In this document: positions 15,560-54,510 of the stretch, in pieces
Layout of the letters: each line of letters starts with the position of its first letter
Numbering within the stretch: the first letter of the stretch is position 1
NCBI GenBank assembly: GCA_946699065.1
Contig: CAMPDV010000252.1
Coordinates: forward strand, 310,001 to 374,000
Length of the DNA stretch: 64,000 nucleotides
Reading direction: 5' to 3'
DNA from: Loxodes magnus
Lineage: Eukaryota > Ciliophora > Karyorelictea > Loxodida > Loxodidae
Notes under the pieces: generated by a model
Told to the model about the DNA's origin: nothing
Databases searched by the model: none
The model's input: only the letters and a program-made list of their open reading frames with translations
Translations under genes and position numbers: made by a program

Positions 15560-16230
15560 AAAGAATTTTCTGCACTTCCTGGGAATATTTTCCTCTTGTA
15601 GATTCCATTTTAAGTAATCCTAAGTTTATTGATTGTTCTTCAAGTTCTTTATTGCTCTCTAACTAAAATCTTCTTTCATTCATAACATTGTTTTAATAAA
15701 TGTCATTTTGATTTGCAGTACCAGCAATATCTAGTTATTTTTTTCTAAAATTTCTTCTGAAATACCTTTTTTTCAAGTCATTTACTTTTTTTCAGTAAAT
15801 CTTAGTCAATCTTTTTATCGTTCTGATGTTCTTAAACATTTGCTTAATTAAAATCTTTTTCAATAATCATACCTTGGTTTTACTTAGAATTATTTTAAGA
15901 TTATTCTTATAGTTGCTATTCCGTGAATAAATTATTTTAGAATAACAGAAGCCTTATTATTAATAATTCATTATTTTAGTCGTCTATTAAATTCATTATC
16001 TCTCTTATTTTTTCTCTTTGATTGTACATTGTTTCTTAATATTCTTTGATTGTTCTTTTCATTTAATTGAGTTATAAATATAGTTCTGATTCTTCCTCGA
16101 TCTTAATTAGATTTTTCTCGATTGTTCCGACATTTATTTTTCCTTCTGATGAGGAAATTGAATTGTCTTCTAGCTATTATTTTTCTACAATTATTTCGCC
16201 GCTTTCCTTTTTGTGTTTCTAATTTGTTTT
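15477..16230 (-). mobile_element. short retroelement encoding a gag-like zinc-knuckle protein
   Basis: Read on the minus strand with UAR as Gln, a single frame spans nearly the whole element: a serine stretch (S-I-S-S-S-E-G-K), a coiled coil with E-K-I-R-E-I-M-N and D-Q-N-N-E-L-L-I-I-R, then an intact CCHC knuckle, C-W-Y-C-K-S-K-[TGA]-H-L-L-K-Q-C (15,726-15,685). R-E-Q-Q-R-T and N-G-I-Y-K-R-K follow. The 53.8-kb copy aligns throughout. TGAs fall at a few codons, two of them shared with that copy. The 5' flank shares AAATTAG and GCGGCGAAA-like bases with 53.80 kb. It ends in three hairpins. No ATG is preserved at the expected start. Length is about 750 bp, with no polymerase gene, so it would need enzymes in trans. 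Confidence 0.65.
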
Positions 16231-17935
16231 TTTGCTATAAATAAAATGATAATTCTAATTAGTTTTTACTTATTTCTATATTTAAAATTTCAAAATCTTT
16301 AGCATCGAAAAACTTATTGTATTATATTTCAATTATCTTAAAAATTTTTTGTAAGACTATTTAATATATTATAACGATCTACAACATTAAGTAGATATTT
16401 CTTATTCTCATTAAATTAAATCAATAATTTAAATAATTTCCAGTCATTATTCTACTTTTTATAAATTAATTCTTCTTTGTACTTTTAAACTTTTTCTATT
16501 ATAATAAAATAAATTTCCGATTATAAATATAGAAATATAAGCATTTTTTAATTTATTTGATTAAAACTACAATAATCCATTAGACTAATTATCTCTTAAA
16601 TTCTGTGATATTAAATTAGTTTTATTCTTTAATATGTTTTTAATATATTTTATATTTATTCCTAATTATTTAGTAATATTATCCTATTTTTCTTTATAAA
16701 GTTTTAATTCTTTTTTATTTTATTTTTTTGATTAACATATTAAATACATCTACCAAAATTAATATTGTTTTGATTGCTTTTAAGAGCCAAGCTATCGATC
16801 AATAAGGTGGAACTTCTAGATAAAATCCTTTTCATCAAAAAATTATGAAGAAAAATGATTCGCGAGTTTCCCTAAATGTAATCTGAGTATCAAAAAATAC
16901 AATTTAAAAATAGAAAACTTGAAAAGTGCCTTTAAGATCTAAGCAATAAAAAGATTTGTCTGATTACGTAGTAGGTAAGATATTCAAAAAATTAAATACT
17001 AAAATATTGAAGATTATTTAATTTCCTTTTTAAAGATATTATTTGCTTTATGAAAAATTAAAATTGAATCACTCTTGACTCTAATTTATAAATTTCAATA
17101 AGTACATAAGAATTAAGTATAAGAACTCTAAAATTAAATGATAGTTTAATGAAAATTCTGCTTTTACTTTGTAATTTATTTGTTTCAGCATAATTATCGT
17201 TTTTTTTGCTGTAGATCAGCACTTCAAACAAATTATTTCTAATATCTTAACACTATTTAATTAAATTTAATTTTACTATTTAGTAGATATTCTTTAAAAT
17301 CATTTAGAAAATAGTTAAAACTACTTCATATACAAATGTTCTTCATTAAGTTTATTCTATCTAGCTTAAATAATAGTTGATAATATTTTTTTAAATATTT
17401 AATAAAAAAATCTGTATTTTTTTAATTTTTTCCCATTCAAATTTTACTTTTTTGCTTATTAAATTAAATATTTTTATTTGATTTATCTTATTATTGCTAA
17501 TATCCCATTCATCAACATTTTTGAATACAAAATTTTTTCTTATTGTAAATTTGCTACTCTTCCTAAATATAATTTTATAATTTTAGATTAAATCTAGTTA
17601 ACTTTAATACTAAATTACTAAAATTTGACTAATTTATTATTAAAAATAGCTTTTTTAATATTTTAACTTTTCTATTTTATAGCTAATGTTTATAATTTTT
17701 AATTTAGTGAGTTAATTTTCTAAATTATCTTAATGCAGTAAGTTTCTAGAAAGTTAGATTCTATTTTATTTTTAATTTCTTATCATTGAATAAGAATTTA
17801 ACTTTCACTAGATTTAGGATTAATTAAGTTATAGCTTTCTTATTAATTAAAATTTTATTTCTAATTTTTAACTCTTAAAGATATTTTGCTTGGAAATAGG
17901 AATTTCATTAAGCTGTTTAAATCGAAAAAATGTTT
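16231..17935. other. A+T-rich stretch with one weak coiled-coil remnant
   Basis: Nothing firm. Around 16,853-16,980 the plus strand (UAR as Gln) reads M-I-R-E-F-P-Q-M-Q-S-E-Y-Q-K-I-Q and is Lys/Glu-rich, perhaps a gag-like coil fragment. Confidence 0.35.
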
Positions 17936-18535
17936 GATAACATTTTACAAGCAAAAATTTTGATTTTCTCTTTAAATAAATTATTAGAGCGCTTTCTTGA
18001 GCATATCTCAGAGTCAGAACAGCTGATTACAGATCAAGATTAAAAATACAGAAATATTGACGGTAAATTAGCACAGTTAGTAAAAAAAGCAAATTGCAAA
18101 AGTAAATAGAATCAAGTGATTATAAGTAAGACAAGAGGGAGAGAGAAGAGATTAAAGTTGACAAGCCTTTATATAAGCGAGAAATGAAATCCTACTACTA
18201 CTGTGGCTCGTGAGAACACTTGTGAAGGAAGTATATGAAATTCCTAATTTAAAATAGAGTTACTGGTAAAAGATAACATATGAAAAAGGTAGAAACAGCT
18301 CAAATTAAGAAGGAATAGAGAACAGTTATAGATGAACGCTTTTGGGAATATATACAAGAAAAAGGGCAACTAGTAATGGAAGAGGAACTGGAGACTTTAG
18401 AACAACCAAAACTTGACAGTGGGTGTAGTACGAACATTTAATTTTAGCCTCCGGAGCTATCTGGAGGCAGACTAGAGATAGGTTGAAATACCTACAAGAA
18501 GGCCAAATATTTAATTCATAACAATAATAAATAAA
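17936..18535 (+). pseudogene. gag-like protein, zinc knuckle and C-terminal part
   Basis: E-R-F-L-E-H-I-S-E-S-E-Q (about 17,990-18,025) matches the 6.7-kb and 32.0-kb copies. The knuckle (18,193-18,234) reads Y-Y-Y-C-G-S-[TGA]-E-H-L-[TGA]-R-K-Y, that is CX2CX4HX4C with the first and last Cys changed to Tyr by single G-to-A steps. The TGA two residues after His is shared with the copies at 46.67 and 31.86 kb. G-N-I-Y-K-K-K-G-N follows about 100 bases later in another frame. The frame of the knuckle stays open about 100 further codons. The end, around 18,440-18,510, matches 20.0 kb. Confidence 0.6.
18447..18468 (+). other. 6-bp hairpin near the end of a gag-like copy
   Basis: GCCTCC pairs with GGAGGC around a 10-base loop. 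It is the most G+C-rich point of this copy and lies close to its 3' end. Confidence 0.45.
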
Positions 18536-19559
18536 TTATTAGTTTTTAACTTCTTTAAAATTAAAAAACTTAGAATCTTTAATTTAACTATTAAAAACAA
18601 ATTTTCTAAATTTCAGATTTGGAAAAAATATTATTTTGGTATGTTACCTATATCTATCTTTTTAAAAATAAAATTTTTCTATTAGCCATTATAAATTATT
18701 TTTAATTAATAATCTATTGCTTAATAATAATATATTTTAAAAGATATAAATATTTTTTATTTATGAAAATAATATTTAATTTAAAGAAATTAAAATAAAA
18801 AATAAAAATTATTAAAAAAAGAAAGGTAATTGCAAATAAGGAAAGTATATTACAATCATAGTTTCTAAAAATTATAATTTTTTATTTATATTTTACTATC
18901 TGAAATTATGAATATGAAGTTAATAAATCATAACTGCAAAAATTAAAAAATCATTAATTAACAAAATAATCCTAGGTATGTAAATAATTATTATAAAGCT
19001 TATTTTTCATTTTCCTATAGCATTTCTTCCTTAAAATTTTTAATTGTAAAGTATATTAAAAATAATTATTAATTTTTTAGAGCTTAGTAGAAATTAAAAA
19101 GTATAGAAAGCAAATTAATTTTTTTAATTTTAGTATTTATACATTAGTTTGAAATAGTCTATCAGAAAATATATATTATATAAAGGTAAAAAGCCAAATA
19201 AGAGAAAATGGGATAAATAGGATTTTTAAGCAGTTATTTTTGAGCGAATTATATGTATTTATTTTAAAAAGAGTGTTGTATTTAAAAAAAGATTTAAATG
19301 TTAATTTAGCGTTTATTTTTTTATTATTAAGGATTAAAATTAAAAACGATAGTTTAAATGGTTTAAAATATCTTATATTATAATAAGAGTTAAAAAATAT
19401 ATATTTAATTTAAGTGATCTATCTTAGTTATTATATTGAAAGCATAAAAAATATTAGAATATCTTTTGTCTTATTTAAAAAGAATTATCCTATCTTGGAT
19501 GAAACCTAAATTTATAAAACTAAATTCTACATATTTTATTATTTATTTTAATATTTTTT
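18536..19559. other. A+T-rich stretch, nothing recognised
   Basis: No coding signal or matched repeat. Confidence 0.45.
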
Positions 19560-19995
19560 CTGAATCATTTAAATATTTTTATTAAAATTTGTAAATTAGA
19601 TTAATTTTTCTTTAATTTTAGCCATTTATTCAATTAGTTTATTTTTGATATATTTTATTTTATTTTTTATATCTATCTTTTAATATTTAGTAGAAGAAAT
19701 ATGTTTAAATTTTTATTTCTCACTTTTAATCTTTTACTATGGATTTTTATTTTTTTACATATTCGTAATAAGAAAAATTGAAGTAATATTATTAGTATAA
19801 ACTTTATTTATAATTATTATTGTTTATATTTATTATTTTTCTAATTTTATTAAATTATTAAAGATTCTAATATCGTTATAATAATTGTATACGAAATATT
19901 TATTGGCCATTAATTTAAAATTATTTTAAAAGTAAATTTTCATTATTTTCTTATATTGCATAATTTTACAATACAATGCAAAATTAAATATTTTA
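19560..19995 (+). repeat. direct repeat with 47,100-47,740
   Basis: Blocks such as ATTCGTAATxxGAAAAATTGAAGTA and TTTTAAAAGTAAxTTTT with ATTGxATAATTTT occur in the same order in both places. In each case a minus-strand gag-like ORF lies immediately to the right, so this is probably the shared 3' part of one element subfamily. Confidence 0.5.
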
Positions 19996-19999
19996 TATT

Positions 20000-20930: not shown

Positions 20931-21689
20931 AATAAATTAAATATTTTTATTTAAAAAGATAATAATTTTCTTAAATAATAATAATATTTAAGATAATTTT
21001 AATTTTCATACTAAGATTTATTTATTTATGAGATAATTCTATATCTCTACTATTTTTCAAATTTTATATTAATTTTATATTTTTCTAAATGATAATTATA
21101 AAAAATTAGAAGTTTATTTTATTTTTTATTTTATTTATGATTATAACATTTATTATTTAAAAAAAGTACATAATAAAAAAGTATTGCTATGTAGGAATAT
21201 TTAGCTTTATAAGAAAATATTATCTAATCCAAATAAAAGAATAGCATAATTTTAGTAGTTAAATATAAATTTTAATCAATAATAAAAGAAAATGATTTAG
21301 ATATAAAATTTTAAAGAATCTTTATTTTTCCAAATTTTAATAAATAAAATAGTAAAGTGAAAATAAGCAAAACATATTTAAAATAATCTATTTTAAACTG
21401 AAAAGATAGAAAAAATTGAAAATGTTGTAGATTAAAAAATAAATAAAAATTAATCAAAGTATAAATATAATAAAGGGTAAATTTTTTTGAGATCTAACTC
21501 TATTATAAATAAAAATTATAATTTTGACTTTTTTTTCATTAGTATTGCAGAAATTAATTTAGATAGGCATAACCTAATTAAAAGAAAATTATTATGGTTA
21601 TTTTTAAAATGGCTCTAGAATTCTCAAATAATTCCTCTACCAATACATGCCGACTAAATTAGTAGAAGACAAAAAGCTGTAGATAAAAA
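20931..21689. other. A+T-rich stretch, nothing recognised
   Basis: No coding signal or matched repeat. Confidence 0.45.
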
Positions 21690-22504: not shown

Positions 22505-25500
22505 ACATGAAAATAATCATCAAATAGTAATTTACTTTTTCTTATGCTAATATTTAGCTAAGCATTTTATGTTAAATGCTTATATCTGATAATAAATAAT
22601 TATTTTTTTAAATAAATACTTCATTTAATAACAAAATACGCATGACATATTTATACTTTTAGTTCAATAATTTTAAATAATTTTTATAAATGATTTAAAG
22701 TTGAAAGATTTGAATAGTATAAAATAAAAGGAAAAAAGAGCAGATTATTAATATATTTTACTAGAACTAAACATTATTTTTGAATAATTAGTCATTCAAA
22801 AGATGTCTTTAATTGGTGCATAAAATAAATTAAATTAATAAGAGTGTAGATTACAAAAATTGTGTTTTATTAGATTTAGAATAGAAAATTTAACTTTTTT
22901 GGCTAAGTTGACTTTATTGGATAAAATGAAACTATAAGTAAAAAATAAAATTATTGGATTTCTATTAAATTTAAAACTCCTAGAAATTGAAAGTTTGATA
23001 AACTTAACAAAAAAATTAATCCTTGCATAAATAATTAAGTAAAGGTAAAAAAAATCATTAATACTTATAAGAACTGCTTTAATTATTTAAAGCACAAGTA
23101 AAAAGCTTTTAAATAAACAGAATTAATTAAATAAAGGAGTTACATGAAACTATAGTTCGAAAATTTCAAATTTAGATTATAGGATAAGAATTAAAGCAAT
23201 ATCTCAATTATTATAAGGTATAAATAAAAAAATTCAATAATAGATTTAAATTATTTTTTATGAGACCATAAATACAATAACGGATACTAAATAAAAATCT
23301 AAAACATAATTGATAAAAATATGTACTTAAATATAACATAAAAAGTAAATCAAAAGTACATCAAATATATAGGAATGCAAAAATAATTTGAAATTCATAA
23401 AATCGGAACCTATAAAAATTAATCCAATCTAATTATTTAATAATAATAATAGATATAAAATTTTAAATATTGATACATAATGAATAGTTACATGAATGTA
23501 ATTTACAAATTATGTTTAAATAAAGCTTTAGATTTCATCTAATTATCAATTAGAATAACTTAGAGGAAAGATAAAATTGGAAAAAGATTTTAAGATAAAA
23601 TTTATAGATTAATATACGAACAATAAATTGAAAGATAATCTATACCGAAAAAAATCTAAAAAATTTTTATAAAATTTACATATTAGGAATTCATAATACC
23701 TTTAGAAAAAAATTGTAAGAAGTAAAATAAAATAATTAAAAAAGTTACTTTTAAGATCCAGAAGTAAAAATGAATAACTTTTACCAAAAAAGCAATAGAA
23801 ATAAATCTATTAATGAATAAATAGATATTTATGGATGATAAAAAAAGGTTAAATTAAGTTTATAGTCTTAGAAGAGAACTTCACATCTAAGTTAAATCCG
23901 CTCTCTCCTAAGCTAAAACAGCAAAGATTAAGAGTAGAAATATTAGAAAAAATGTTAGATAAATTGATTTAATAACTAGATCTATGATTTTCAGTCATAC
24001 AAGAAACTCTTGATAAGCTTTGAGAGTAAATAGTAACTAAATTTGAAGATATTGAAAAACAATTCGATGAAATTCCTCAATTATTTGAATTCCAATTCTC
24101 TTGATTAAATATGAAATAAAAGAACTTTTAGTTAAGTAAGAATAATAACAACTAGCAGTTTAAAAATCCCAAGATTAGTAATTAAGCATTTCAATGGAAA
24201 TCGAACACGAATAATAATAATAAGAGACAAATAAGATAAATTATTATCGTAGAAAGATCAGGTACTATATTCATCAGAAAAATCACGGCTGAAAATAGTG
24301 TTGAAAGAAAAATGAAATAGAAAGAATTAATAAGAAATAAATATATGACATGCTTTTCAGCATTTGAACAATAAAAACAGGCTGAATGTATAGAAAGAAA
24401 TTTAGCGACTAAAAACTTCAAGAATAAATAATAATTTAAATATAAACTAGAAGGACAAAATGTTTTTGGGTGGAAGATAAGAATGATGGACTAACGAAGT
24501 CATATGCCATCCTTTAGTTCTTATTATATATTTGATATCCTTTACTGCACTGATTATACAAAGGATTCCTAAGATTATTGCTATTAACCTTATTAAGATA
24601 ATTAGTCGATTAATTTAGGTTTATATTCTTACTTTTTAAAATATTCGTCAATAGAGGACTATTATTTCTTAGGTGCCTTTTTTCTTATAATAAATGCACA
24701 TTTATTTATTTTTAGATCAAAAAATGGATAAAATTATTTTAAAATAGAATTAAATAATCTTAATAATTTAAATTCTCCATAGCCAAATATTGTTTGGTAT
24801 TTAAAAAATTGTAATTGTTTAGTCTACCATTTAGTTAAGAAGAAAATTAAAATTTAATTATGAAATTTAAATAAAAATTGCTAAAGACAAACTAATAAGC
24901 TAATAAAAGGTAAATTTAAAATATTAGGAATAAATTTTATATAATTATAATTAAAAAACTTATAAAGTGCAGAAAAATATTAGAATTGGAAATTATTTAT
25001 GTAAAATAGAAAAATAAATATTTAAGTTCTAAATCTAAATTATATTTCCTTAAAAATATTTTCAATATTTTTCCGTTAAAAAATTTATTGCACATTTTTT
25101 TTGAAAGAATCATTAAAGACAGTAAAAGCATAAATAATTAAACTGCAAATAATGCTTCTTCTTTTAAAAGAGTAAATTTTATTTTACTATAGGAAAATAA
25201 TCAAAACTCTTGAATAAAAATTAAATCTTGTTTATTAATCGATTTATCATTCTTTTTTTACTATATGCTTATATAAGAAGAAAATTGTTAGAAAAAGCAT
25301 AGAATAACTATAATTAGTTAGAGAAGTAATAGTAGACAATATAAGTATAATAGATAAAACAAAAAGATTATATATTTAATAATAAAATAAATTGAAAATA
25401 ACTAAGATCTTTGAGGTTAAAAATAGTACTTGCTTATGAATTTTTGGTAATGTCTTACTATAAATATTTCTTAAATATACTTTATTTAGTAAGTTTCTTT

Positions 25501-25560
25501 TTCATTTCCGAAAATGTAGATAGATATCTTGCTTTAACTTGATAGAATTAGCATTTTACT
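22505..25560 (-). repeat. right arm of inverted repeat 1 (partner 2,955-5,590)
   Basis: Collinear reverse-complement match to 2.96-5.59 kb. A partial third copy, in direct orientation to this arm, lies at about 51,430-52,190; both share TAAATTGAAAATAACTAA and then TTTGCTAATGAATTT-like blocks. Within this arm, 23.87-24.57 kb is a plus-strand gag-like insertion not found in the partner. Confidence 0.8.
23874..24572 (+). pseudogene. gag-like ORF nested in inverted repeat arm
   Basis: About 230 codons open with UAR as Gln and only three TGAs. It contains Asn/Gln and coiled-coil stretches such as V-E-I-L-E-K-M-L-D-K-L-I-Q-Q-L and F-E-D-I-E-K-Q-F-D-E-I. Y-M-T-C-F-S-A-F-E-Q-Q-K-Q-A-E-C (about 24,345-24,395) could be a decayed zinc knuckle with one residue lost. 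No ATG suits the start. The TGAs precede residues such as F-S-V-I and E-Q-I-V. The copy is on the strand opposite to the arm that carries it. Confidence 0.45.
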
Positions 25561-26159: not shown

Positions 26160-26640
26160 TTTTTGCATGGATCTTAAAGATCGACATTATCCTATTGATA
26201 ATTCCTATTGTATGTGAGGGGAGTATGAGACTTTAGAACATTTCTTTAAATGCATATACTATTCTAATATAAGGGATTGACTATCGGAAAAGATCGGGAA
26301 TTATGACTTTAGGCGTCTCATACTATATGATAAAGAATATATAAACTTATTTTCAAGGTTTAAATTTGGATTATTTAGAGTTATAAATCAAAATATTTCA
26401 CAAGAAACTAATGGCAAGAAGACTCGAGATTTTAGAAATGGAGGAAGCAAAAAAGGAAAAAGTTAAAGATTAGTCGAAACAAGGAGTCTTAAAGAAAAAT
26501 GATGAGATCAAGACAAGATTAAAAATAATTTAAAACATTTACTAACTTCTATAATCGAAGGAAATCACTCTTGTAATTAAAGATGACAACCAACTTTTTA
26601 GTTTTAATCCATTTATATAACTGAAATTGAATTTAAGGTA
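26160..26640 (+). pseudogene. 5'-truncated LINE reverse-transcriptase tail
   Basis: The frame (UAR as Gln) reads Y-C-M-[TGA]-G-E-Y-E-T-L-E-H-F-F-K-C (26,206-26,253). This is the C-terminal CCHC motif of LINE reverse transcriptases, with the second Cys now TGA. It is followed by S-E-K-I-G-N-Y-D-F. An acidic Lys-rich tail (R-R-L-E-I-L-E-M-E-E-A-K-K) and I-I-E-G-N-H-S follow. The reverse complement of 7,080-7,455 matches at about 85% or better by eye. Homology starts abruptly near 26,160, and the partner arm lacks this piece, as expected for a 5'-truncated insertion. A one-base difference from the 7.2-kb copy shifts the tail frame. Confidence 0.6.
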
Positions 26641-27311: not shown

Positions 27312-27800
27312 CGTCAGGAGAACATCAGTTCATGCGACACACTGTTAAATATTAAAGTTTGGGTTGTCCAATTTTAGCGAGATTGGAAACTCGGCTTCTT
27401 CAGGTTTTTTTTTCTTTTACTTGATTTGATTCCATCTTTATCTTGTATATTGAACCATCCGGATTACAATACTTTCTTTTCATTCTGAATTCTTCTTTTT
27501 CTTCTTTTTTTGCTCTTTTATCCAATAGTTTCTTTATTTCTATTAAAATTTCCAACACTTCCAATAAAGATGTCATACGCTTCCACAGCAGAAACATTTC
27601 TTTTTGATTTTTTATTATTTTCCTTGTTATTTTTGCTCTTTTTAGACTTTGATTTTCATTTAAATAGTTCCAATTTCGCTTTACTCTTTCTTAATTGTTT
27701 TCAATTTCTCTTCTATAGAATTTTAATGAAAGTTAATTTAATTCTTAATTATTTTTCATTTAATTTTAAGCTAATTCATAATATGCTGAAATTTATATTT
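27298..27800 (-). mobile_element. short retroelement copy with intact zinc knuckle
   Basis: On the minus strand the knuckle reads C-F-C-C-G-S-V-[TGA]-H-L-Y-W-K-C (27,596-27,555), perfect CX2CX4HX4C spacing. W-K-F follows, as in the 28.4-kb copy (Y-W-K-F). The TGA directly before His is shared with the copies at 15.70 and 54.30 kb. N-Y-W-I-K-E-Q-K-K follows in the same frame. P-D-G-S-I-Y-K-I-K (about 27,465-27,440) is in another frame and matches P-D-G-S-Q-Y-T at 47.85 kb. The frame 27,400-27,597, open under the standard code, includes that last motif but crosses the knuckle out of phase. The element splits the right arm of inverted repeat 2. Confidence 0.6.
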
Positions 27801-28224: not shown

Positions 28225-28985
28225 TTCATAACCGCTGCTCAAAGAAGTTTATAAATTTGTGAGAAGGACGCTCTTGAATATCTAAAGTTTTCTTCTTTAA
28301 GGTCCTGCTTTTTATTATCACAGCAGTTTTTAATTTTCTTTTCTTCTATGGATTTATCTTTCTTGATTTTAATAAAGTTGTTCTCTTTTTCTTTTTTTCC
28401 TAGATTCAATCATGTCTTTTAAATTTTAAGAATTTCCAGTAATTTCTATATAAATATTATTAGCTACTACAGTAGTAGCAACGTTTTCTTTTCCTTATTT
28501 TCATTTTTCACTATTATTATTCATTGTTTTCTTTTTCTATTTCCATGTTTTTAAGTTAGGAGTTAATGTTTTAACTTTGAAGAATGTTTTCAAGGTGTTA
28601 ATTTTAGTCCTATATCCTTTAGACTTGAGAGTTTGTCTGGCTCAGCTGTTCACGTTGATAGTTTCAGAGTGCGCTGAATGCTCTTTCCTAGTTGTTCAAT
28701 CTTAGGTCAATAGAATCTTAGAATCCTCCAGTCATTAATTCTGTCAGCTTGGCGTTCTCCTTTCGAAGCTTTTTAACCTCTTCTTGGAGGTTAAGCACTA
28801 CCTTTATAAGCTGTTTATAGCTTATCTATTGTTATATGTTGAATTCTGATACTTCTTGCTGTATGTTTCTTAAAAATCTTATTAAATTTTAGTTTCTTAT
28901 TTTGAAGGAGAACACATTATTTTTCTTGGCTTTACTGGTTTCTATTTGTTCCCTTCTGATTCTTCTTAATTTTTACCAATCTAAA
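28225..28985 (-). pseudogene. gag-like protein with coiled coil and zinc knuckle
   Basis: One minus-strand frame (UAR as Gln) runs about 250 codons with only three internal TGAs, ending at TGA near 28,228. It has a basic N-terminal part, then the coil Y-K-Q-L-I-K-V-V-L-N-L-Q-E-E-V-K-K-L (about 28,825-28,770), then a Gln/Asn-rich coil. The knuckle C-Y-Y-C-S-S-Q-Q-Y-L-Y-R-N-Y (28,480-28,439) has His and the last Cys changed to Tyr by single transitions. A long basic tail follows. It aligns with the 12.3-13.1-kb copy in the other arm. No ATG is present at the start. Probably the longest continuous gag-like reading in the window. Confidence 0.65.
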
Positions 28986-29900: not shown

Positions 29901-29904
29901 CTAT

Positions 29905-31610: not shown

Positions 31611-32105
31611 CTTCATGCTGGAAATCAGATTGCTCCGGTATTTAAAAGTCTTTGCTCCTCTCTCCTCCCATCGCTATTGTCATTCCGATTCTATTTTTAT
31701 TTCCAGTCAGATTTTCTCTTGTAGATGAAACCTAATTCATTTAAGCTCAATTTATCTCTGATTTGTATCTACTACATTTTTTTCTTCCTCTGCTGTGCTT
31801 GTATTCTTCTATATTTATTCCACTACTACGTCTCGAAATTTTTGAATTTCTTGCACCATCTTCACAAGTATTTTGTCGAATTGCTGTAGTAACAATTCTT
31901 CTCTACTTTTTGTGGTTGTATCTCAATCTTCCTGTTGGTCTTTTCGATCATCATTAAGTAGCCCATTTGTTCGTCTAGTTTCTTTTTTAATTTTACCAGT
32001 CTATCTCACAGATCAGATTGTTTCTGAAGCTAATTTTAGGATTAGTTATTCTGGTCTTAGGATATGTTTCAGAAAGCGCTTAGTTCTCTTTTTATGACAA
32101 AAATC
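31598..32105 (-). mobile_element. gag-like element copy with zinc knuckle
   Basis: On the minus strand R-F-L-K-H-I-L-R-P-E-Q (about 32,072-32,040) matches the 6.7- and 18.0-kb copies. A short coil (L-V-K-L-K-K-K-L-D-E-Q) follows in another frame. The knuckle C-Y-Y-S-N-S-T-K-Y-L-[TGA]-R-W-C (31,894-31,853) has correct spacing, with Cys2 changed to Ser and His to Tyr. The TGA is at the same place as in the 18.22- and 46.67-kb copies. G-F-I-Y-K-R-K-S-D-W comes later in the same frame. The 3' end, AATTGCTAAAC beyond an AGG/CCT hairpin, matches the end of the 54.5-kb element. The plus-strand frames seen here under the standard code are antisense to this. Confidence 0.6.
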
Positions 32106-34029: not shown

Positions 34030-34740
34030 GCAACATACAAAATGCTTCTTTTTTTCGATGAATTGAAATCAAAATTTTATAATATTGTTATTTCATATTA
34101 TAATATGACATAGAAGAAAAATTCGCCTAAAACGGTTTTCTAACTAGCAATAAATATCTTGATTGAGATTTATTCGTTATAGGCTAATAAAAATCTACAA
34201 GATGCAATGCAACAACTAAATCAGCAAATAAGCAGACTAGATATAAAAATGATAAACTCTTAAATGACAATAAAATTCTGAATACAGAATTGAGCTTAAA
34301 AGCTTCTACACATCTATTTAATTAAAAATTCTGGGAATAGAAGATAAAATATAAGAACTTCGAAAGCTCTAATTAAATAAACCATGTATGCACTGCTGGA
34401 GATTGAAAAATCAAAATGAATTATTAATCATACATTAAAAAATTTTTAAATTAATCTAGAAACAAAAAGAAGACCAATTATGTGTTGATTCTGTAGAAGA
34501 CTAGAAAAAAAAATTTGAAATTGTAAAAAATAAACAAGATTTATTGTACGTCTAATGGTGAACTAAATAGGTAAAAATATTTAAAGTAAACAAAGAAGCT
34601 TCCTATATTTAAAAATCATTCAATTAATAAATTAAAAAATGATTGAAATTGTCTTATAGGAAAAAATAACGAAAATTAATCTATAGATCATCAAGACTTA
34701 CAAATACCCCAAAAAAAATCTGAAGGGAATATTTTTATTA
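34030..34740 (+). pseudogene. gag-like copy with zinc-knuckle remnant
   Basis: A coil-like region around 34,190-34,330 (for example L-N-Q-Q-I-S-R-L-D-I-K) is followed by sequence homologous to 9,900-10,175. The knuckle reads C-[TGA]-F-C-R-R-L-E-K-K-I-[TGA]-N-C (34,483-34,524), with exact CX2CX4-X-X4C spacing but Lys for His. The first TGA aligns with TGG in C-W-Y-C at 15.72 kb. A block at 34,600-34,700 matches 4,110-4,200. Frames are broken and no start can be fixed. Confidence 0.5.
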
Positions 34741-43918: not shown

Positions 43919-45609
43919 TTAAAGTTTAATTCTTGATGAATCAAATATAAAGCACGTTGATTATTATAAATAAATTTTATAAGGTATAGTTAATATATAA
44001 GATACTTTTCTTATAAATATCATAGTACAATTAAAATAATTAGACTTTAGCATTTTTAATTTGCTAATTACAAATTTTCACATTTCATTTAAAAATATTA
44101 ATATTGCTAATTACGATAGTTTTGATAATTTGAATATGATAAAATGATACACAGATAAATAGAACTAAATGTGTTTGCTTTTTAATTAGTCTACTAGTAG
44201 ATACTTTATAATTTTTTAGATTAACTTCGGTAATTTAAAGTATATCTTTTTTTATCATTTATACTCAAAAAGCTTCAATATGTTTTATTTTATTTTATTT
44301 CTTTATGAATTTAAGAATATTAATTAGTAAATTTTAGCCTCGAAACTTTAAAAATTTAAAGATTTAAGTTATTCTTTATTTAGTTATTTAAATATACTAA
44401 GGTTAAGAATAAAAAAATGCACCAAATATAAAAAATAATAGAAAAGTTTTCTAATTATTTTATTTCCTGATTAAAATAATAAAAACTATACAAATAGTTT
44501 GTATTTAAGTAAAAATCTTTTATAAGAATAAAATAAAATAAAAGTAGAAATAAATGCATATAAAATAAAATTTATCGTCTTTAGACTATTTAAACGGCTA
44601 ATATTTAAAATCTTTACAGATATTCATAAATTTATACTAACTAGTATAAGGAATTTAGTAGAAAAATTTATATTTAAAATATTAAAAATTACCTAAGTAA
44701 TATATTAATTTTCTCAAAATAAAGGTACTTTACCAAGAAATCTATTTTTAATTTATAGAATCTTTAGTAAATGCACTTTAATTTTTAGATTTTTTTATCA
44801 ATTTTTTCAAATTTTATCAGATTAAAAATCTTATGATAATCAATAACGTAAAAGTTTTGCATGTGACTATTTCATTTATCATCATTAATATCTAAAATTT
44901 TTAAATTTTTAATCTAAATTTAATGTTCTCAATATAATTCTTTTTATTAATCTTAACTATCTTATTTTACCATTTTTTTAATTTTTATCTTTAATTATAA
45001 AATTTTAAGTAAAAGATTAAAACTTTTTTTTGAAAATAGAATCTCTATCTAAGTGAAATATTTTAAAATTACTAATTAAAATTAAAATTTAAAATAGGAG
45101 ATAAAAAATCAAAAATTCTTATTAAATTTTTTTTAGTTAACTAAAAGCAAGCAAAATAATAAAATATTTCAAATAAAATTAAAAAAAACAGTAACCATTA
45201 AAAATTCATTAAACAGGTTTCATTAAAAAATATGTAAAATATGCAATATACTTTAGGTAGATGGTTGTCTATTGGAATGTAAAATAAAAAATCGATCATT
45301 TAAAAATTTAGAAAAATATTAATTTTAGAAATAAAATATTTAATAAAAAAGCATTTAAAACTACATTTTGTCTTAAAAAATTTTAATTTATTTTAAATTT
45401 CTAGTAAAATAAATTTTTCAAACTTAATAATTTTATAATTATCTAAAATTATTATATTGTAAAATAAATAAAGTAGTGTAATCTAAAAATATATAAATTA
45501 ATTATTTCGTAATTCCTTTATAAACTACTTCAAATCTTAAATTATCAACTTATTATCTTAAAGAAAATTTAAAATTCACATAAATATCTCTAAATTAAAA
45601 ATTTATATA
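43919..45609. other. A+T-rich stretch, nothing recognised
   Basis: No coding signal or matched repeat. Confidence 0.45.
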
Positions 45610-45815
45610 TTCAGGACTTTAAACCTTTCGATATGGCCACTTGAAGTTTGTTCCTTGTAATTTCTTAGCAAGTTCTTAATTTCTTTAAATCACTATAATT
45701 AAATTTAGACTTAAATTTTCCTTTAATGTAGTCGCTCCTGTCTATGTAAATCCTTTTAGAAACAACTTCCTTATTTTTAAATAAAGAAGAGACGCAAAGA
45801 ATAAATTATTTCGAG
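45610..45815 (-). pseudogene. ORF upstream of and opposite to the gag-like gene
   Basis: On the minus strand a frame (UAR as Gln) between two TGAs reads K-R-I-Y-I-D-R-S-D-Y-I-K-G-K-F-K and then F-N-Y-S-D-L-K-K-L-R-T-C-Q-E-I. It is less A+T-rich than its flanks. Its place, divergent from the gag-like ORF at 46.23 kb, parallels the opposite-strand ORF of inverted repeat 2, and D-R-S-D-Y-I-K-G-K-F-K is loosely alignable with E-R-N-V-M-R-E-F-K there. The I-Y-I-D-R-S-D string also occurs in glutaminyl-tRNA synthetases, but the rest does not follow that family. Confidence 0.35.
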
Positions 45816-46230
45816 TTTATTCTTCATAATTTTTTAATATTTAATAATTAAAATTAAAAACATTATTTGAATGATTTAAAGTATCTAATAATAAATTAAG
45901 AATCAAAATACACATATTTAGTTTAAGTTATCTATTTTAGCTTATTTATAGCAAAGTAAACTAAATAAATTTAATAATTAGAATATTTTTTAAAAATAGA
46001 AACTTTTTTATCTAATATAAAAAATATTTAAAAGTTTAAAATGTATAAGTTATATATTTTTCATTTGATAAAAACAAAATTTGTTGTGATTTATAAAATA
46101 TATAATAATATTCTATTTCCAAATAAAAAAATTCTCTTTAATAATACAAATTTTCAAGTTAAATTTTTTCTTTTTTCTTTTTTCAAGTGATTGAAAAAAT
46201 TGAATTACAGAAGTTTTATTTTTCAAATTT

Positions 46231-46896
46231 ATGCAAATTATTTTAAACAAGGAACAAATACTCGGAATGGCTAAAGAGGAAATGGCTAAATTAATTATAG
46301 CGTTAATTAGCCATAACTAAGACCTAGAGAAATAGGTTATGGAGCTTGCCCAAGAACAACAATGACACCTGGACGACGAGGAGATGCATGCTCCTAGAAA
46401 CAAAAACTAAGCTGTCATAAATATTCGAATTGACGAATTCGACAGGCAGTTGGAATAGCTATATGATATGAACGAGAACATGCACATCAAGTTAGAGAAA
46501 ATTGAAAACAATATTAACCTTAAAATGGAGAATATCAAGAATGATATCAAGATCTAGATAGCACACTCTGTTCCAATGGAGTTGGAAGAGGTCTAGAATA
46601 AACAAATCGAATTAACTAAAGAAAGATACTTTAAGAAAAAATGCTTTATCTGTGGAAGAATAAACCATTTCTGAAGGAAATGCAGATAAAGAAAAGAGAT
46701 CCAAAAGAAAATTTGAAACGAACTAACCTAATTCTACCCCACTAGCAATGGGAATATTTATAGGAAGAAAAGCAATATTCGGAGCAATCCACTACGAAGA
46801 CTTGAAAGTGACTGGAGGAACAGACCACCAAGAGTTCAAGTACCTATCAGTTGGATAGGGAGTAGGAAACTATTAAGAAAACAATCCCTTCTCTGA
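46231..46896 (+). pseudogene. best-preserved gag-like (ORF1-like) protein
   Basis: From ATG 46,231 to TGA 46,894 one frame of 221 codons holds, with TAA/TAG as Gln. In-frame TGAs stand at 46,363, 46,672 and 46,714. Residues 75-130 are a helical charged region (F-D-R-Q-L-E-Q-L-Y-D, then K-L-E-K-I-E-N-N-I). The zinc knuckle at residues 138-151, C-F-I-C-G-R-I-N-H-F-[TGA]-R-K-C, has perfect CX2CX4HX4C spacing. N-G-N-I-Y-R-K-K-S-N follows, then a basic C-terminus (D-W-R-N-R-P-P-R). Codons are much less A+T-rich than the flanks. CCHC proteins of this build bind nucleic acid in retroelement particles. If UGA is only a stop, the gene is dead; if UGA can be Trp, it is intact. Confidence 0.7.
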
Positions 46897-47099
46897 ATAA
46901 CTTAAATTTAATTTAATTTAATGCAAATTATTTATTATCGGTTATAGTATAATATATTAATTTTATAATTTTTTTAATTTATTTTATCTAATATTTAATT
47001 AATTTAATTTAGTATTTTAAACTTTAATTTCTAAATGCTTTAAATAATATTTATTTTTAGCCTTAATTTAGTTTCACATCGTCTTTAGATTTATTTTTC

Positions 47100-47744
47100 G
47101 AGCAAAGGAAATTGATAAGCATAATAATTTATAAAACTATTTTTTTCTTATAAGAAATTTAAGTTAAAAAACTAAATTCATATATTCATTTATTTATTTT
47201 TATAGTTTTTATGAATCTTTAGTTTATGTTAGTTTAAATTTTTATATTAAATTTATTTTTCTTTAAACTATGCTATTCTTTCAAGAAAATTTTTTAGACC
47301 TTTTTTTAAAATTATTTATATTATATTTTTTAATTTTTTAGTAAAAAAAATATATTTACGCTTTTATTTTTAATTTTAATTTTTTTAATTAAATTTTTTA
47401 AACTATTTGAATTCGTAATTTGAAAAATTGAAGTATTATTATTATTTTAATAGTGTTTTGCTTATAACTATTATCTCTTATAATTATAATTTTTATAATT
47501 TTTATTTATTTAAGATTTTTAATATAATTATAATAATTTTATACTTTATTCTTATTTTCAAATTAATTTAAATTCTTTTAAAAGTAATTTTTTTTATATT
47601 GTATAATTTTTAATTATTTTTCTATAACTTTTAATAATTATATAGTAAAAGAAATCTTCAATATTTTTTTAAGTTTTTAATTTAAAAATGTTAAAGTTTT
47701 TCTATATCACTATGAGTTTTATCAATAATTAATAATTTTCATAT
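47100..47744 (+). repeat. direct repeat with 19,560-19,995
   Basis: Shares ordered blocks with 19.56-19.99 kb, and like it lies just 3' of a minus-strand gag-like ORF. It is probably the 3' part of the same element subfamily. Rather low-complexity, so matches were judged only on runs with several G or C bases. Confidence 0.45.
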
Positions 47745-48203
47745 TCAAATCAAATTAAGTTTGTTTTCGGCTAGAAGTTTGAAAAGTTTTAAAAGCCTGT
47801 TAGATTCTCCTTTCTTTAAATAGTATATTAGCTTCCGTCTGGTAATTCTCGCTTTCTCCGTCAGATCTTTTTGTAGCTCGATTGAAAGAAAATCATTATT
47901 TTATATCAGATCGATCTCCCGATTGCTCTTCTTATTTTCTCTTGCTACGGACATTTCCATCGTAGGTGTCATCAAGTTTCGAAATTTTTTACAGTTCCCT
48001 AATTTCTTTTGAATTTAGCTATGTTCTTTTCTTTTATATATTTCCATTGGAACACAATCGCTCTATTAGAATTCTTGTCTGACTTATTCCAGCTTTCTTT
48101 CAGTCTCTGAATTAACTTCTTCTTGCCTCTCCCAGTTCTTTTAATCTTATTCTTGCAAAATTAAAATGTTTTTTTCCATTGTTTGACCTCTTTTTATGAT
48201 CAT
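47745..48203 (-). pseudogene. gag-like copy with two overlapping open frames
   Basis: From ATG 48,203 (or 48,179, M-E-K-N-I-L-I-L-Q-E-Q) a minus-strand frame of 152 codons ends at TGA 47,745 with no internal TGA (UAR as Gln). K-L-E-Q-V-R-Q-E-F and C-V-P-M-E match the coil and S-V-P-M-E of the 46.2-kb copy. A different frame holds the family motifs further on: T-[TGA]-[TGA]-H-L-R-W-K-C near 47,965, K-K-I-[TGA]-R-R-K (matching K-K-I-[TGA]-N-E at 46,714), and P-D-G-S-Q-Y-T-I-Q-R-K. An indel has therefore moved the knuckle out of the open frame. It faces the 46.2-kb copy tail to tail. Less A+T-rich than its surroundings. Confidence 0.55.
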
Positions 48204-49874
48204 CTGTTATACAGTAACATTTCTTCATTTTCTACCAAGAAGTGAGTTTCATAATTTTTCGTACTAATTTTTTTATTTATGCAGATTATTTTTTTCTCAT
48301 ATAAGTTTTCAAAATTAATTGTCCTTTTAGAAGCTTTCTTAATGAACAATATAAAAATATTTGCTCTTATTTTTTATTTTATTGAAGATTATGAATTAAC
48401 TATTAGAAACTTATTAGAATCAAAGAATCTTCACATAATCTTGACTTTTTAATACATGATAAAAATTTAATTTTGAACACTTTTATTGATAATAAATAAT
48501 AGGGCAATTATCTTTTAAAAAGTTTCTTTAATTAAGTTAACAGTCTATATTATGTATTTACATATTTTCTTACATATTTGAAACATCTTAAAACAATAAA
48601 ATTAGTTTGAAATTGATAGATTTACAAAAGTATAAAATAGTAGGAAAGAGGAATAGAATAGTTATTTATATTACTATAGCTAAAATACTCTCTAAGAATC
48701 TCTGTCTTAGTGAAAACTGTGTAAAGTGGTTTTTGAATATAAATTAATTAAATTAGGAAAAGTTTAGAGTAATGAATGATATAATTAATTAGATTTAGGT
48801 TAGTAAATATAAAATATTTTGATTTATTTGATTTTGCACAGGAATTAGAAAAAAGCAAAAAGCATTTCTTTGATTCTATAATTCAAAATTTATAGAAAAT
48901 TGAGTATTTGAGTTCTAAAAAAAGAAATTGAATCTATGTAAAAATAATTTTAGAAAAATTAAATAAAAAAAGACGTTAATATTTATATTAATTTGTTTAT
49001 CTTTTTTAAATATAGTGTAAATTGTTTAAATAAACAGTATTAATTAATTAATAACTTCATGAGATAATAGAAAAATTAAAATTAATATAATAGATTAAGA
49101 TATAAAGGCATATTTTAATTTTTATAAAGCTATACAATTATCAAAATAAAATAACTTTATTAATTTTTGGAAACTATAAATAAAATCAAGTAAAGTTAAA
49201 TAAAAATCCAAATTTTAATAGATATAAATAATATACTTATATTTATTTATATTAATTAATTAACATAATACCCCATTAATAGGATCAACTCTATTTAAAA
49301 TTAAATTAAAAAAATATACACCTCAAGCTTGCTTGAACTTCATTGCTATGAATTTTGATGGTTTTTAAATTATTTTTCATGATTTTTTCCTTTAATTCAA
49401 AAATCATACATTTTTATTAAATTCATCAATCGCATTGTAAGTATAGGAAATTTCTTTATTAGTTTAAATTATTTTTTCCTATAAAGTAAGCCTTCTTGAA
49501 AACAATATATTATAAATTGATTTTCCCATTAGTTTTCTATTATTATTTATTCTTTTTATTTAAATTGGTAATAATTTAGTACTTTAAGTACTACCCGTTT
49601 GCAATATTAGTATATATTTTTTCTTCAGTAGAGAAATCTTTTGTTGAAGGTTATTGCTATATTCCATTGGATCGTTAAGTATTTAGGATTGTTCTGTCTT
49701 ATAATTTCTAAAGATTTAAAATACTTTACGATCTATTTATTTTATAAAATTCTTTCTTAAATTTACTACAAGGACGGGTTTTGAGGAAATTTTAATCTCT
49801 AAATTTAGTTTTTAGATCTAAAAAATTCATTATATTATTATTATAATTAAATGTAAATTAAGAATTCGCTTTCC
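48204..49874. other. A+T-rich stretch, nothing recognised
   Basis: No coding signal or matched repeat. Confidence 0.45.
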
Positions 49875-49890
49875 CTGGATTTTCAACCAG
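49875..49890 (-). other. conserved 3'-terminal hairpin
   Basis: CTGG-ATTTTCAA-CCAG, with CTT/AAG able to extend the stem. On the minus strand the loop TTGAAAAT is identical to that at 54.48 kb. Confidence 0.6.
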
Positions 49891-50645
49891 TTACAAGATA
49901 TACAGTTTCTTAACGTGATCGTATGCCATGACCTTTTTTTTTAACTTGAATGGTTACCATTTTGAATAGTCAAGAGAGTATCGGAATCCCCCATTTGTAT
50001 ATACCTTGTTTTATTATTCAAATTTTTTCATTTCCATTCACATTCTTTCTTGTACTTATTAATTCAATGTATTTCAGTTTCAGCAGCTTTTATTAAGGGT
50101 TAAATTGATTAAAAATGTCAGCACTTTTTACTTCCATATAAAGATATTTTTTGTCGTATATTTTATTCTCAAGCTTTTCTATTCTTTTTAATAAGTTTTA
50201 TTCTTCAAGCTCTTTTTTTCATTTTTTACGAGTTCATTCGGATTTATTTCTATTTCCATGTTTTGATTTTATTTGAAATTTTGTTGAGATTATATTAATA
50301 GCTGTTATTCTTTCAACAAGTTATTTTGAATTAGTTATTTTCTAAGAATGAGTAATTCATTATTTTAATCTTCAATTTTATTCATAAGCTCACGTATTTT
50401 CTCGCTTTGATTGAAAATAGTTTTCTCATAACGTGAGACTAAAGATTATATTTTATCAAGTTGCTATTAGAAATCTAAAGGAACTTCCTATTCCGATTCT
50501 TTACTATCGATCAGTCTAACCATTACTTTACCCCGTGAAGATGAGCTATATTTTTCTCGCTATTTTTCGATTTTTCATATTTCTTTCGTCGCTTATCTCC
50601 TAGCTTTTTTAGCTTAGTTTCTTTAGAGACGAATTTTCTGTTCCA
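49875..50645 (-). mobile_element. short retroelement encoding a gag-like protein
   Basis: A minus-strand ATG near 50,645 opens M-E-Q-K-I-R-L-Q-R-N, followed by S-S-S-S-R-G-K-V-M-V-R-L. A strong coiled coil follows: E-K-I-R-E-L-M-N-K-I-E-D-Q-N-N-E-L-L-I-L, then Q-L-I-Q-N-N-L-L-K-E-Q-Q-L. This matches the 53.8-kb copy (D-Q-N-N-E-L-L-I-I-R, Q-L-I-Q-N-N-L) almost residue for residue. A frame shift follows the coil, and the knuckle is unreadable. The element ends in the conserved hairpin at 49,875-49,890. It sits head to head with another copy starting at about 50,865. Confidence 0.6.
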
Positions 50646-50864
50646 TTTTTTTAAAATTCACTATAATTAATCAAATTTTAAGTTTGTTAATAAATATCAT
50701 TAGCATCTTTTGCTAATTTTGGTTCATCATATAAAGAAGGAAATATCGTAGGTTACAATCTTTTAAGAGTTACTAAGTTTTTTGAGAGAGACTTGTTTCA
50801 TTGGGATTTCTTATTATATATATTTATAAAAATAATTAGTTATTAAAAAAGAAAAATGAAATAA

Positions 50865-51330
50865 GGAATTCGTCTCTCTAAGAATTAAAGAAGAAAAATA
50901 AATTAATCAACTAACTAGGAGCTAAAAAAGTGAAGACAGAATTGAGAACAGAGGGAAATGTAATGGTTGGTCTTACTAAATAAACTAATCCTGAAATAAA
51001 AAATAAATTTAAAATAAAATTGAACTAAGAAAATATAAATTTCAAAGCATGAAGAAATTATTTTAATCAAGAAGAAAAAATCCGGGAATTAATGAACTGC
51101 TTAGAAGATCAAACAATGAACTTATAATTCTTAAAAATTCACTGAAAAAAAATTTAGTAACAAAAATTAGCACTATGAAATGTCCTAGATTAATTAATAT
51201 AATCGCGAAGAATGATTATAAAAGAAAATTAACATAAACTTCAGCATTAGTTAATTTGAGAAAAATGCATTTTTTTTAATTAAGTAGTAGTAAGGGAACA
51301 TGTTTTACCGAAAAATAACCGAGATTAATT
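50865..51330 (+). pseudogene. gag-like fragment, head to head with previous copy
   Basis: With UAR as Gln the plus strand reads N-V-M-V-G-L-T-K-Q and N-Q-E-E-K-I-R-E-L-M-N-C-L-E-D-Q, matching K-V-M-V-R-L and E-K-I-R-E-L-M-N-K-I-E-D-Q of the 50.6-kb copy. Decay follows, with no knuckle or terminal hairpin seen. Its 5' end is only about 220 bp from that of the opposite-strand copy. Confidence 0.5.
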
Positions 51331-51429
51331 TAATGCTACATAAACAGATAAATATAGATGGTAATGAAAAGTATTTGTGATTAATAATTCTATAAAATAT
51401 AAAAATTATAAACTAAATATAAGTAATCT

Positions 51430-52190
51430 TAATAATGCTAAGTTTATGTAGTCAAATATTAGAAAAATTGTAATTATTTGGTACATTATTAATTTAAAGA
51501 GAAAATTTAAAATCTATTTATGAAGATTAATTAAAAATAATAATTAAAAAAAGAAAATATTGCTAAAAAATTAATTAGTAAGCTAAGAAATGATAAACTT
51601 AAAATAATTGATGTGAAGTTATTATAGGATAATTATTTTACGAACAAACTAATTTATAAAATAAAAAAATAATTAGAAAACGAAACTATTTATGTACATA
51701 GAAAAATAATTATTCAAGTACAAACCTAAATTAAATCAATGTTTAATTTATTAAATTTTTACCTAAAAACAAATTTAACTACTTTTGAAAGGAGCATCAA
51801 AGAAAGAAAATTAATAATTAAATATATAAATAAATTTTCTGTTTTAAATAAGTAAATTCTACTTACTATAGGAAATTAGCAAAATTTTTAAATAGAGGTA
51901 TAATTTATTAATTAAATGGTTTGCTATTCTTTTGTGAGTATATACCATTTTATAAAGAAAAATGAAAGAAAAAAACTATTACATTATTAAACTGAGCAAT
52001 AATAGACGAAATAAGCTTAGAAATATAACTGAAATTATTTATATTCGAGACTAAAATAAATTGAAAATAACTAAAAAATTTTAGTAAAAAATGTCATTTG
52101 CTAATGAATTTAGTCCAAAAATTTACCTTAAATGGATTTTAAATATATTTTATTTAATAAGGTTCATTTTTACCTCAGTATGAGTAAATA
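51430..52190 (+). repeat. partial third copy of the inverted-repeat-1 arm
   Basis: Direct-orientation similarity to 24,780-25,555, lower than between the two arms. Aligned runs include GTAATTATTTGGTAC against GTAATTGTTTAGTC, and TAAATTGAAAATAACTAA in both. The match stops near 52,190, as it does at 25,560. Confidence 0.5.
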
Positions 52191-53799
52191 AATTATCTTG
52201 TGATTTAATTAAAATAAAGAAAAATTAAAATTAATAAGTATTATTTTATATAGTTTTGTTAGCAAAAGATAAATCATAATAAAATTACTGAAAATAAAAA
52301 AAATTGCTAATATTTTAATTTAAAATTAAATTAAAAACTAAAATTTGTAAATTCTGCTAATTCTATTAAATTTAGCATTATACATTTATTAAATTTATTT
52401 TTAAATTTATAACTATAGTACTATTTCTTTTTTTATTCCTTTAAAAATTTATGTTTCATTTGTAAAGTAGCTTTCTTCGTTTTTTATTTCTACATTATTA
52501 AACTAAAATTTATACATATTTTCTAATATTTTTTACTTATTGTTTATATACATTTTCATTCTATCATTTACATAATGAAAAGGACTTAAGCATTGAAACA
52601 TTATATTTTGAGTTTGTAATTCGCGAAATAGTCAAAGGGGAATAATATGGTGGAGTTATAAAAAAATGTTTTTAATGCAGAAAATACTTGTATTTAAAAG
52701 ATCGTTACTTCTCGATTTTCATTAAAGAATATGATAGCTAAATATTTTTACAAATAGAACTTATCTTCTCTAAGAGAGTAGAGATCTGGATTTTTAAGAA
52801 AAAAATATCAATAATTAAATAATAGAATCAAAAATATAATTAATTAAATTATTTTTCGGTAGCGATAAATAAAAGGAGTATCTATCTTTGAGAAAAAAGA
52901 AGTTATAAGTTATTTGAAAAGTGAAGAAGTAAAGTAAGAAAAGAAAGAATTTCAATTTTAAGAAAAAAAATTAAATTATAACTAAAATTAACTTTAATTC
53001 GTTTTGAATAGTAATTAGTTTTAAAAAGAAAATTAATACATTTAGAATGAGAATGAGAATGCGAATAATTGTAATTTAGTGTTTTACTAAAGCATTAAAA
53101 ATATATATTATATAAAATTAAAATATTGTATAAGATAGTCTTTATTGGAGAAGATAAAATAGTAAAAAGCAATTTTTTATTATTAAGAAATAAAAATATT
53201 AAAAAATAAAATCTAAAAAAAAAGTGGCTTTAAAGAGATAGTTTTAATTTACCAAATTTTTTTAATATTAAAGAAATTTAATAGCGAAAATAATATAATT
53301 TTAAGTAGATAGTCATGCTATTAAAAATGAGCTTGAGCTAATTGATGAAAAATGTAAGAAAGTAAAATATCAATAAACAATAAAGCATTTTTCTGTTTCT
53401 AATGTTTAAATTAATAAATTAATAAAAGAATAAAATTATATTACTAATTACTATAATGATTGTAATAAAACATTAATATAAAATTAGTTTCGCAAAAAGA
53501 TGAAAATCTTTTGATTAATTTTGGTTTATTTGCTTAAAAAAATGTTTATTTACTTATCATAAAAGTAAAAAAATCAAAATAATGAAAATAAAGAAAGTTA
53601 TATGAGGATTGAAAGATCAATATTTTTATAATATTTTAAGATTATGAATCACTCAATTTTAATCAAAACATTATCTTATTTTATTTATTATTAAATTATA
53701 TTTTTACCTATATTTTTTAATACTATTATTATTTTACAAACATTTTTTAAGAAATAATATTTAGATTAAAAAATTATAATAATATATTCGCCTTTCCAA
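52191..53799. other. A+T-rich stretch, nothing recognised
   Basis: Lys-rich frames occur around 52,860-53,100 without any family motif. Confidence 0.4.
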
Positions 53800-54510
53800 A
53801 AACCAAATTAGGAAAATAAAAAAGAAAGCAGCGAAAAAAATGCAGAGACAACAGTAGTAAGAAGATAAATCTAGTTCCACATCTGAAGGAAAAATCATAG
53901 ATGAAACAATAGAGACAAATCTAGTAAAGGTATAAAAATAATCATAACTCTAAATATAACTCGACTAAATGAAAAAATAATACAAAATTATTAGGAAAAA
54001 TAAGAATTCAATGAATACTATAGAAGATCAAAATAATGAGCTACTAATAATTAGATGATAATTGATTTAGAATAATTTAGTCACGGAATAGTAACTATAA
54101 GAATAATCTCAATCGAATTTTAAGCAAAACAAAATATCATTATTGAAAAAGTCTCTACATAAGCAAACGTCCAAGAAAAATAGAATGAAAAGAAGATTAA
54201 TATAGAATTATTAAAAAGAATTGACTAGCTTGTAAAAAAAAATGTTTAATAGATTCAAGAAAAGTCAAATTAATTAATGCTTTTATTGATAATTGAAGTG
54301 ACACTTATTACAAAATTACGATCGGTGAAGGTAAATTTAGATAAAAGAACAACAAAGAACGTTAAGTATGATCAGCAGACTCTGAATTACTCAAACAGGG
54401 ATATACAAGAAGAAATTATTTGCATAAAAAGCAGAAGATTCTCATTGGTTACATTCACATAAAAAAATGGTAGCAAAAACCTGGTTGAAAATCCAGGGAT
54501 TGCTAAACTT
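53800..54510 (+). mobile_element. short retroelement encoding a gag-like zinc-knuckle protein
   Basis: Starts with CAAATTAGGAAAAT and GCAGCGAAAA, shared with the 16.2-kb copy. From ATG 53,840 (M-Q-R-Q-Q-Q-Q-E-D-K-S-S-S-T-S) one frame with UAR as Gln runs past the knuckle at 54,278: C-F-Y-[TGA]-Q-L-K-[TGA]-H-L-L-Q-N-Y. There Cys2 is now TGA, the last Cys is Tyr, and the TGA before His is shared with the 15.70- and 27.57-kb copies. K-E-Q-Q-R-T and G-I-Y-K-K-K follow in the same frame, as in the 15.5-kb copy. The standard-code frame 54,277-54,462 is out of phase with these. It ends with the hairpin 54,471-54,505. No polymerase is encoded. Confidence 0.65.
54471..54505 (+). other. conserved 3'-terminal hairpin, two-part 11-bp stem
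   Basis: TAGCAA (54,471-54,476) pairs with TTGCTA (54,500-54,505) and CCTGG (54,480-54,484) with CCAGG (54,493-54,497) around the loop TTGAAAAT. This is the most complete version of the element's terminal structure. Confidence 0.65.

Follow-up and report, generated by a model that had tools for sequence, protein, structure and literature searches.

In-frame TGA as a probable tryptophan codon in a family of compact gag-like retroelements of Loxodes magnus

The window analyzed here is a stretch of 64,000 nucleotides (nt) from the karyorelict ciliate Loxodes magnus (contig CAMPDV010000252.1, G000:C252:310001-374000 in our numbering), with a GC content of 17 to 21% measured in 4-kb steps. It holds dispersed copies of a gag-like gene in which TGA codons recur in frame at the same places in and around a CCHC zinc knuckle. 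An earlier note on this DNA had proposed that UGA was decoded as Trp in this family, alongside UAA and UAG (UAR) as Gln, and all of the TGA (11) and TGG (2) codons that it named lie in frame where it placed them. The knuckle spacing itself is well beyond chance, since the six frames contain four intact CX2CX4HX4C knuckles, at 14410 and 46642 on the plus strand and at 15685 and 27555 on the minus strand, whereas 40 first-order Markov resamplings yielded 0.05 on average and never more than 1. Three of these four carry TGA directly before the His, including the knuckle at 14410, whose TGA at 14431 was missing from the earlier note. Across 26 sequence sources (280 kb) we counted 14 intact knuckles with TGA (5), AAC (3), CAA (2), GGA (2), TGG (1) or TAC (1) before the His, and both GGA cases belong to one duplicated locus of another type.

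The copy at 46 kb is a 5'-truncated gag-like insertion on the plus strand (46231..46933), in which the element proper (46244-46920) is bounded by 13-nt target duplications (46231-46243 and 46921-46933). Its knuckle (46642-46683) comes with in-frame TGA at 46672 and 46714, and another in-frame TGA lies at 46894, 24 nt upstream of the 3' end. Loci L012 and L014 have the flanks and lack the insertion, and locus L018 holds a copy of the insertion that is 91% identical over 672 nt. The motif K-K-I-[TGA], found here at 46705-46716, does recur, as the earlier note had said, in a degenerate minus-strand copy at approximately 47780..47990, with its first K at 47872.

Of the other copies, two with an intact knuckle were matched by the family profile described below, namely, 14221..14592 on the plus strand (knuckle 14410-14451) and 27411..27788 on the minus strand (knuckle 27555-27596, TGA before the His, and TGG at alignment column 161). 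Columns are those of the family alignment, where 144 is the codon before the His, 147 the second codon after it, and 161 lies just after the knuckle. The minus-strand copy at 28307..28864, a member of the old subfamily E, has TGA at columns 68 and 161 and TGG at column 151, and that at 31682..32092, also on the minus strand, has TGA at columns 68 and 147 and TGG at column 161. A degenerate plus-strand knuckle (18150..18300, limits approximate) has TGA two codons after the His, at 18223. Two copies, at 15.7 and 54.3 kb, gave no match to the family profile and represent a more distant branch; the former (15537..16232, minus strand, knuckle 15685-15726) has TGG at knuckle position 2 and TGA before the His, the latter (53798..54466, plus strand) has a degenerate knuckle with TGA before the His at 54299, and 15537..16232 and 53798-54466 are 69% identical.

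Three further plus-strand copies are more degenerate. In 12501..12900, the coiled-coil part (12501-12773) was recognized by the profile, and the C-terminal part, which is degenerate, holds an in-frame TGA at 12873, although the placement of this codon just after the knuckle falls beyond the profile match and rests on a separate alignment. The weakest items are 10057..10162 and 34408..34513, which are 78% identical to each other. Their TGA codons, at 10135 and 34486, are in frame, but reading them as knuckle position 2 requires that Lys substitute for the His of the knuckle, as seen in 34408..34513, and neither has a profile match. The Pfam family zf-CCHC (PF00098) matched one of six window copies at 17.6 bits, versus a gathering cutoff of 20.8, and exceeded that cutoff in none of the six and in none of four open reading frames (ORFs) from young copies.

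The young copies delimit the element. Six of the seven for which upstream DNA was fetched have exact flanking repeats of 12 to 18 nt that enclose units of 961 to 1,004 bp, and no flanking repeat was found for the seventh; a lone 12-nt repeat could be due to chance, but the agreement of the unit lengths argues otherwise. One ORF fills these units, beginning at most ~10 nt from the 5' repeat in the copies read for this (L044 and L035), and no reverse transcriptase (RT) is encoded in them. For the L027/L026 copy, a duplication of 29 nt was read off the sequence. No Pfam family passed its cutoff in the ORF stretches of four copies, and the ORF stretch of one copy had no PDB match. The copies are a compact retroelement of about 0.95 to 1.0 kb with a single ORF of ~300 amino acids that combines an N-terminal coiled coil with a C-terminal CCHC knuckle.

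The family was sampled in the whole assembly (705,730,643 bases in 7,843 contigs) by a protein search with the 28.4-kb copy (28307..28864, minus strand) as the query. At least 10,000 first-look candidates were obtained, of which 150 were scored; all 150 matched the query, and 107 had TGA in the matched stretch (counted by eye). Forty of the scored loci were fetched, 20 of them young looking and 20 that scored highest among the relatives of the window copy. A profile built from 21 young copies retrieved 71 stretches from the fetched DNA, including misframed tails and a small number of distant, doubtful rows, and removal of four overlapping rows left 67. Four subfamilies, A to D, were recognized among the young copies; the 28.4-kb window copy is a member of the older subfamily E (20 loci, 22 rows).

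In the codon alignment, TGA and TGG alternate at the same columns and follow the subfamilies. Column 68 has 22 TGA and 24 TGG in 52 rows, and column 161 has 19 and 17 in 62 rows. Before the His (column 144), TGA occurs in 14 and TGG in 5 of 64 rows, the rest being mostly TAR (21) and Tyr (8). Column 147 has 11 TGA, 15 TGG and 24 Tyr in 64 rows; column 151, 18 TGA and 4 TGG in 64; and column 177, 17 TGA, 6 TGG and 15 Tyr in 61. A tree was built from 55 of the 71 rows with the eight main columns left out; it has long branches and several unsure joins, and on it the fewest TGA/TGG changes needed at columns 68, 144, 147, 151, 161 and 177 are 3, 1, 2, 3, 5 and 3, respectively. Fixed swaps between TGA and TGG separate A from C at columns 144 and 147, C from both B and D at column 147, and each of A to D from E at column 68. 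Many fixed CAR/TAR swaps between subfamilies likewise agree with UAR as Gln. Subfamily E as a whole has 81 TGA and 4 TGG.

These patterns bear on one alternative, in which UGA is a strict stop and the TGA codons arose by parallel TGG-to-TGA decay after insertion under A+T bias. Decay after insertion is real, as old copies have accumulated their private changes neutrally (67, 70 and 65 singletons at codon positions 1, 2 and 3 among the 20 E copies) and the DNA is very poor in GC, so that some terminal TGAs can be attributed to it. However, whole subfamilies share TGA: column 68 is TGA in 19 and TAA in 1 of 20 E copies, and column 144 is TGA in all six C copies. TGA confined to terminal branches, a pattern that the earlier note had counted against its proposal, was not seen. 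Together with the RT domains and the ligase gene presented below, this makes decay, as the main explanation, extremely unlikely.

A second alternative is a dead master copy that already carried in-frame stops and was spread by enzymes acting in trans, with no working protein. In its favor, an element without RT must move in trans, and the E copies have TGAs in common. In columns 1 to 160 (with L034 and L047, near duplicates, excluded from E), fixed differences at codon positions 1/2/3 were 32/15/66 between A and B, 28/19/70 between A and C, and 51/25/86 between C and E, whereas the E singletons were flat. The third-position excess between subfamilies, combined with these flat singletons, indicates that the sources were under selection as proteins at least some of the time and that the copies decayed neutrally afterwards.

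The stems of the subfamilies point in the same direction. Expressed as changes over sites at positions 1, 2 and 3, with a Fisher test of the third position versus the first two, and with small counts throughout A to D, stem A had 8/91, 3/113 and 8/30 (P = 8e-4), stem B 2/85, 3/111 and 7/29 (P = 1e-4), stem C 3/86, 3/111 and 7/28 (P = 2e-4), and stem D 4/87, 5/112 and 5/25 (P = 0.012). The unpolarized E stem had 19/95, 13/119 and 21/40 (P = 1e-6) and, when polarized with L026 as the outgroup, 9/79, 4/99 and 7/29 (P = 0.011). Two of these sources carried TGA, C at columns 144, 147 and 177 and E at columns 68, 151 and 161. A dead master would fit the polarized E stem in that it has only 7 third-position changes versus 13 at positions 1 and 2; per site, though, the comparison is 7/29 versus 13/178, and on the C stem, 7/28 versus 6/197. 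The third-position excess on both stems implies protein-level selection on both sources along at least some of their length, and we regard a dead master as very improbable as the main explanation. The evidence against this alternative and against decay is firmer for C than for E. The codon patterns support the view that selection on the source genes continued as TGA became fixed in some of them and that decay came later.

Code use elsewhere in the genome agrees with UGA as sense. A search for RVT_1 gave 3,403 candidates, and each of the 150 scored domains, from long interspersed nuclear elements (LINEs), contained 3 to 9 in-frame TGA codons. In a DNA ligase gene that follows a LINE (L025:2500-4500), a single frame read through TGA covers three Pfam ligase domains; the 445 of its codons that were counted include TGA seven times and TGG not once. 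Two eRF1 genes read through 21 and 20 TAA/TAG in 436 codons, which bears out UAR as Gln, and both end in TGA. At the positions of human Ser70 and Tyr125, eRF1 has Ala and Phe, respectively, and NIKS is retained; the earlier note had suggested a look for such changes, although single eRF1 changes are no predictor of code according to PMC4967479. These two genes (L003 and L004) lie 35 kb apart on G000:C196 and are 95% identical (1,244 of 1,308 nt).

This usage corresponds to the karyorelict code, NCBI table 27 (Loxodes and Parduczia, with UGA as a context-dependent stop or Trp), in that UAR is Gln and internal UGA is Trp; the eRF1 genes end in UGA, and no departure was found. For Loxodes magnus, PMC11441545 gives table 27 with UAR as Gln and UGA as Trp far from the poly(A) tail and as the sole stop near it. 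The same UGA ambiguity is described for Parduczia and Condylostoma in PMC4967479, and a tRNA-Trp with a 4-bp anticodon stem has been reported for Loxodes in PMC13092985.

Taking the alignment, the stems and the code use together, we consider it very probable that this is a code-27 ciliate with old and young ~1-kb elements, in which the TGAs at the main columns encode Trp exchangeable with TGG, became fixed in several source subfamilies and were inherited by the copies. In Loxodes magnus, or in a species very closely related to it, UAA/UAG would be read as Gln, internal UGA as Trp and UGA near the mRNA 3' end as a stop, and the final UGA of the element, close to its 3' end, is a candidate stop. 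The sources of several subfamilies would have fixed TGA at Trp columns and then handed it to their copies.

Several observations weigh against this interpretation or narrow it. The fetched copies are a chosen, nonrandom sample, and 43 of the 150 scored matches had no TGA in the matched stretch. Singletons at codon positions 1/2/3 were 17/6/13 in A, 8/7/10 in B, 20/9/21 in C and 16/13/21 in D, being uneven in the young subfamilies A and C, and polarizing the E stem weakens its test strongly. After column 177 the codon-position bias is gone (A-B, 24/17/23; A-C, 23/17/20; B-C, 25/21/28), which leaves the C-terminal frame and its stop putative. Both eRF1 genes have four TGG and no TGA. GGN occurs in 12 rows at column 151 and in 9 at column 161. 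TGA is found without any TGG at column 129 (15 of 62 rows, opposite Lys/Gln), at column 195 (5 of 45) and at columns 47, 128 and 154 (3 each); some shared TGAs thus lie outside the demonstrated Trp columns, and a plain exchange between two Trp codons does not account for them. As a separate observation, the preference for UGA may differ strongly by gene, the ligase using TGA only and eRF1 TGG only.

Some of these columns would suit a different amino acid for UGA, such as Gly or Arg before the His. Classical knuckles have Gly at that site, the L026 copy has AGA there, and columns 129 and 151 show Lys/Gln and GGN, respectively, as counterparts of TGA. At columns 68 and 161, however, TGG is found opposite TGA more often than any other codon, and at column 147 it stands beside Tyr in numbers given above. 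Before the His, the five TGG rows compare with a single GGN among 64, which comes from a copy read in a shifted frame; the site, described in the earlier note as usually Gly, holds Trp, Gln or Tyr in this family. A residue different from Trp at UGA is the least likely of the alternatives and hardly credible.

As to how the element persists, it is probably moved by LINE enzymes in trans, and its protein may act as a nucleocapsid for its own RNA. HAL1-type elements of mammals are ORF1-only relatives of LINEs, presumably mobilized in trans by the enzymes of LINEs. The present element resembles them in its single ORF1/gag-like gene, lack of RT, target duplications and 5' truncation and differs in having a CCHC knuckle with Trp, Gln or Tyr before the His, a length of about 1 kb and the ciliate code; the comparison is by description rather than by sequence. 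An origin of the copies as ORF1 of the LINE at L025/L026 was ruled out, as that LINE's own ORF1 has a different knuckle. Tentatively, and with somewhat less than even confidence, we suggest that this is an abundant RT-less retroelement whose own selected gag-like protein favors its RNA and in which Trp (UGA/UGG) has replaced the Gly before the His, a karyorelict-native, ORF1-only class parasitic on LINEs.

No description of such an element was found among the papers listed in searches on Loxodes retrotransposons and on ciliate zinc-knuckle non-long-terminal-repeat ORF1 proteins, nor is it mentioned in the sections of PMC11441545 that were consulted. The genetic code was already known; what may be new is the family of elements. 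According to these repeats, mobile elements too use NCBI table 27 and preserve a record of code use; on their own, with no transcripts, they point to UGA as sense in an apparent karyorelict. A repeat annotation that translates with the standard code or with code 6 would classify these genes as dead. If its own protein is indeed selected, a gag-only element would bear on the evolution of LINE parasites.

The 3' tails were also inspected. Single-sequence folds gave a hairpin in five gag-element tails (z-scores of -1.1 to -2.8) and none in the window tail, and RNAalifold predicted no pair and gave no covariation support, so that a conserved 3' hairpin was not retained. A tRNA-like 3' tail, suggested by a B-box-like string near 46.83 kb, was also rejected, as ARAGORN found no tRNA in the window and the string lies inside the open knuckle frame. 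The 3' end of the LINE at L025:2040-2110 has a strong hairpin (z-score of -3.9) followed by TTTA repeats.

Other repeats occur in the window. About 10 kb of it (45000-55300) is copied at 94 to 96% identity ~126 kb upstream on the same contig (G000:C252:229104-240265; L007-L009), and the copies of the 46-kb flanks in L012 and L014 are more diverged (77 to 83%) and inverted. Two inverted repeat pairs with 83 to 93% identity join 2979-3782 with 24740-25525 and 7095-7420 with 26204-26531.

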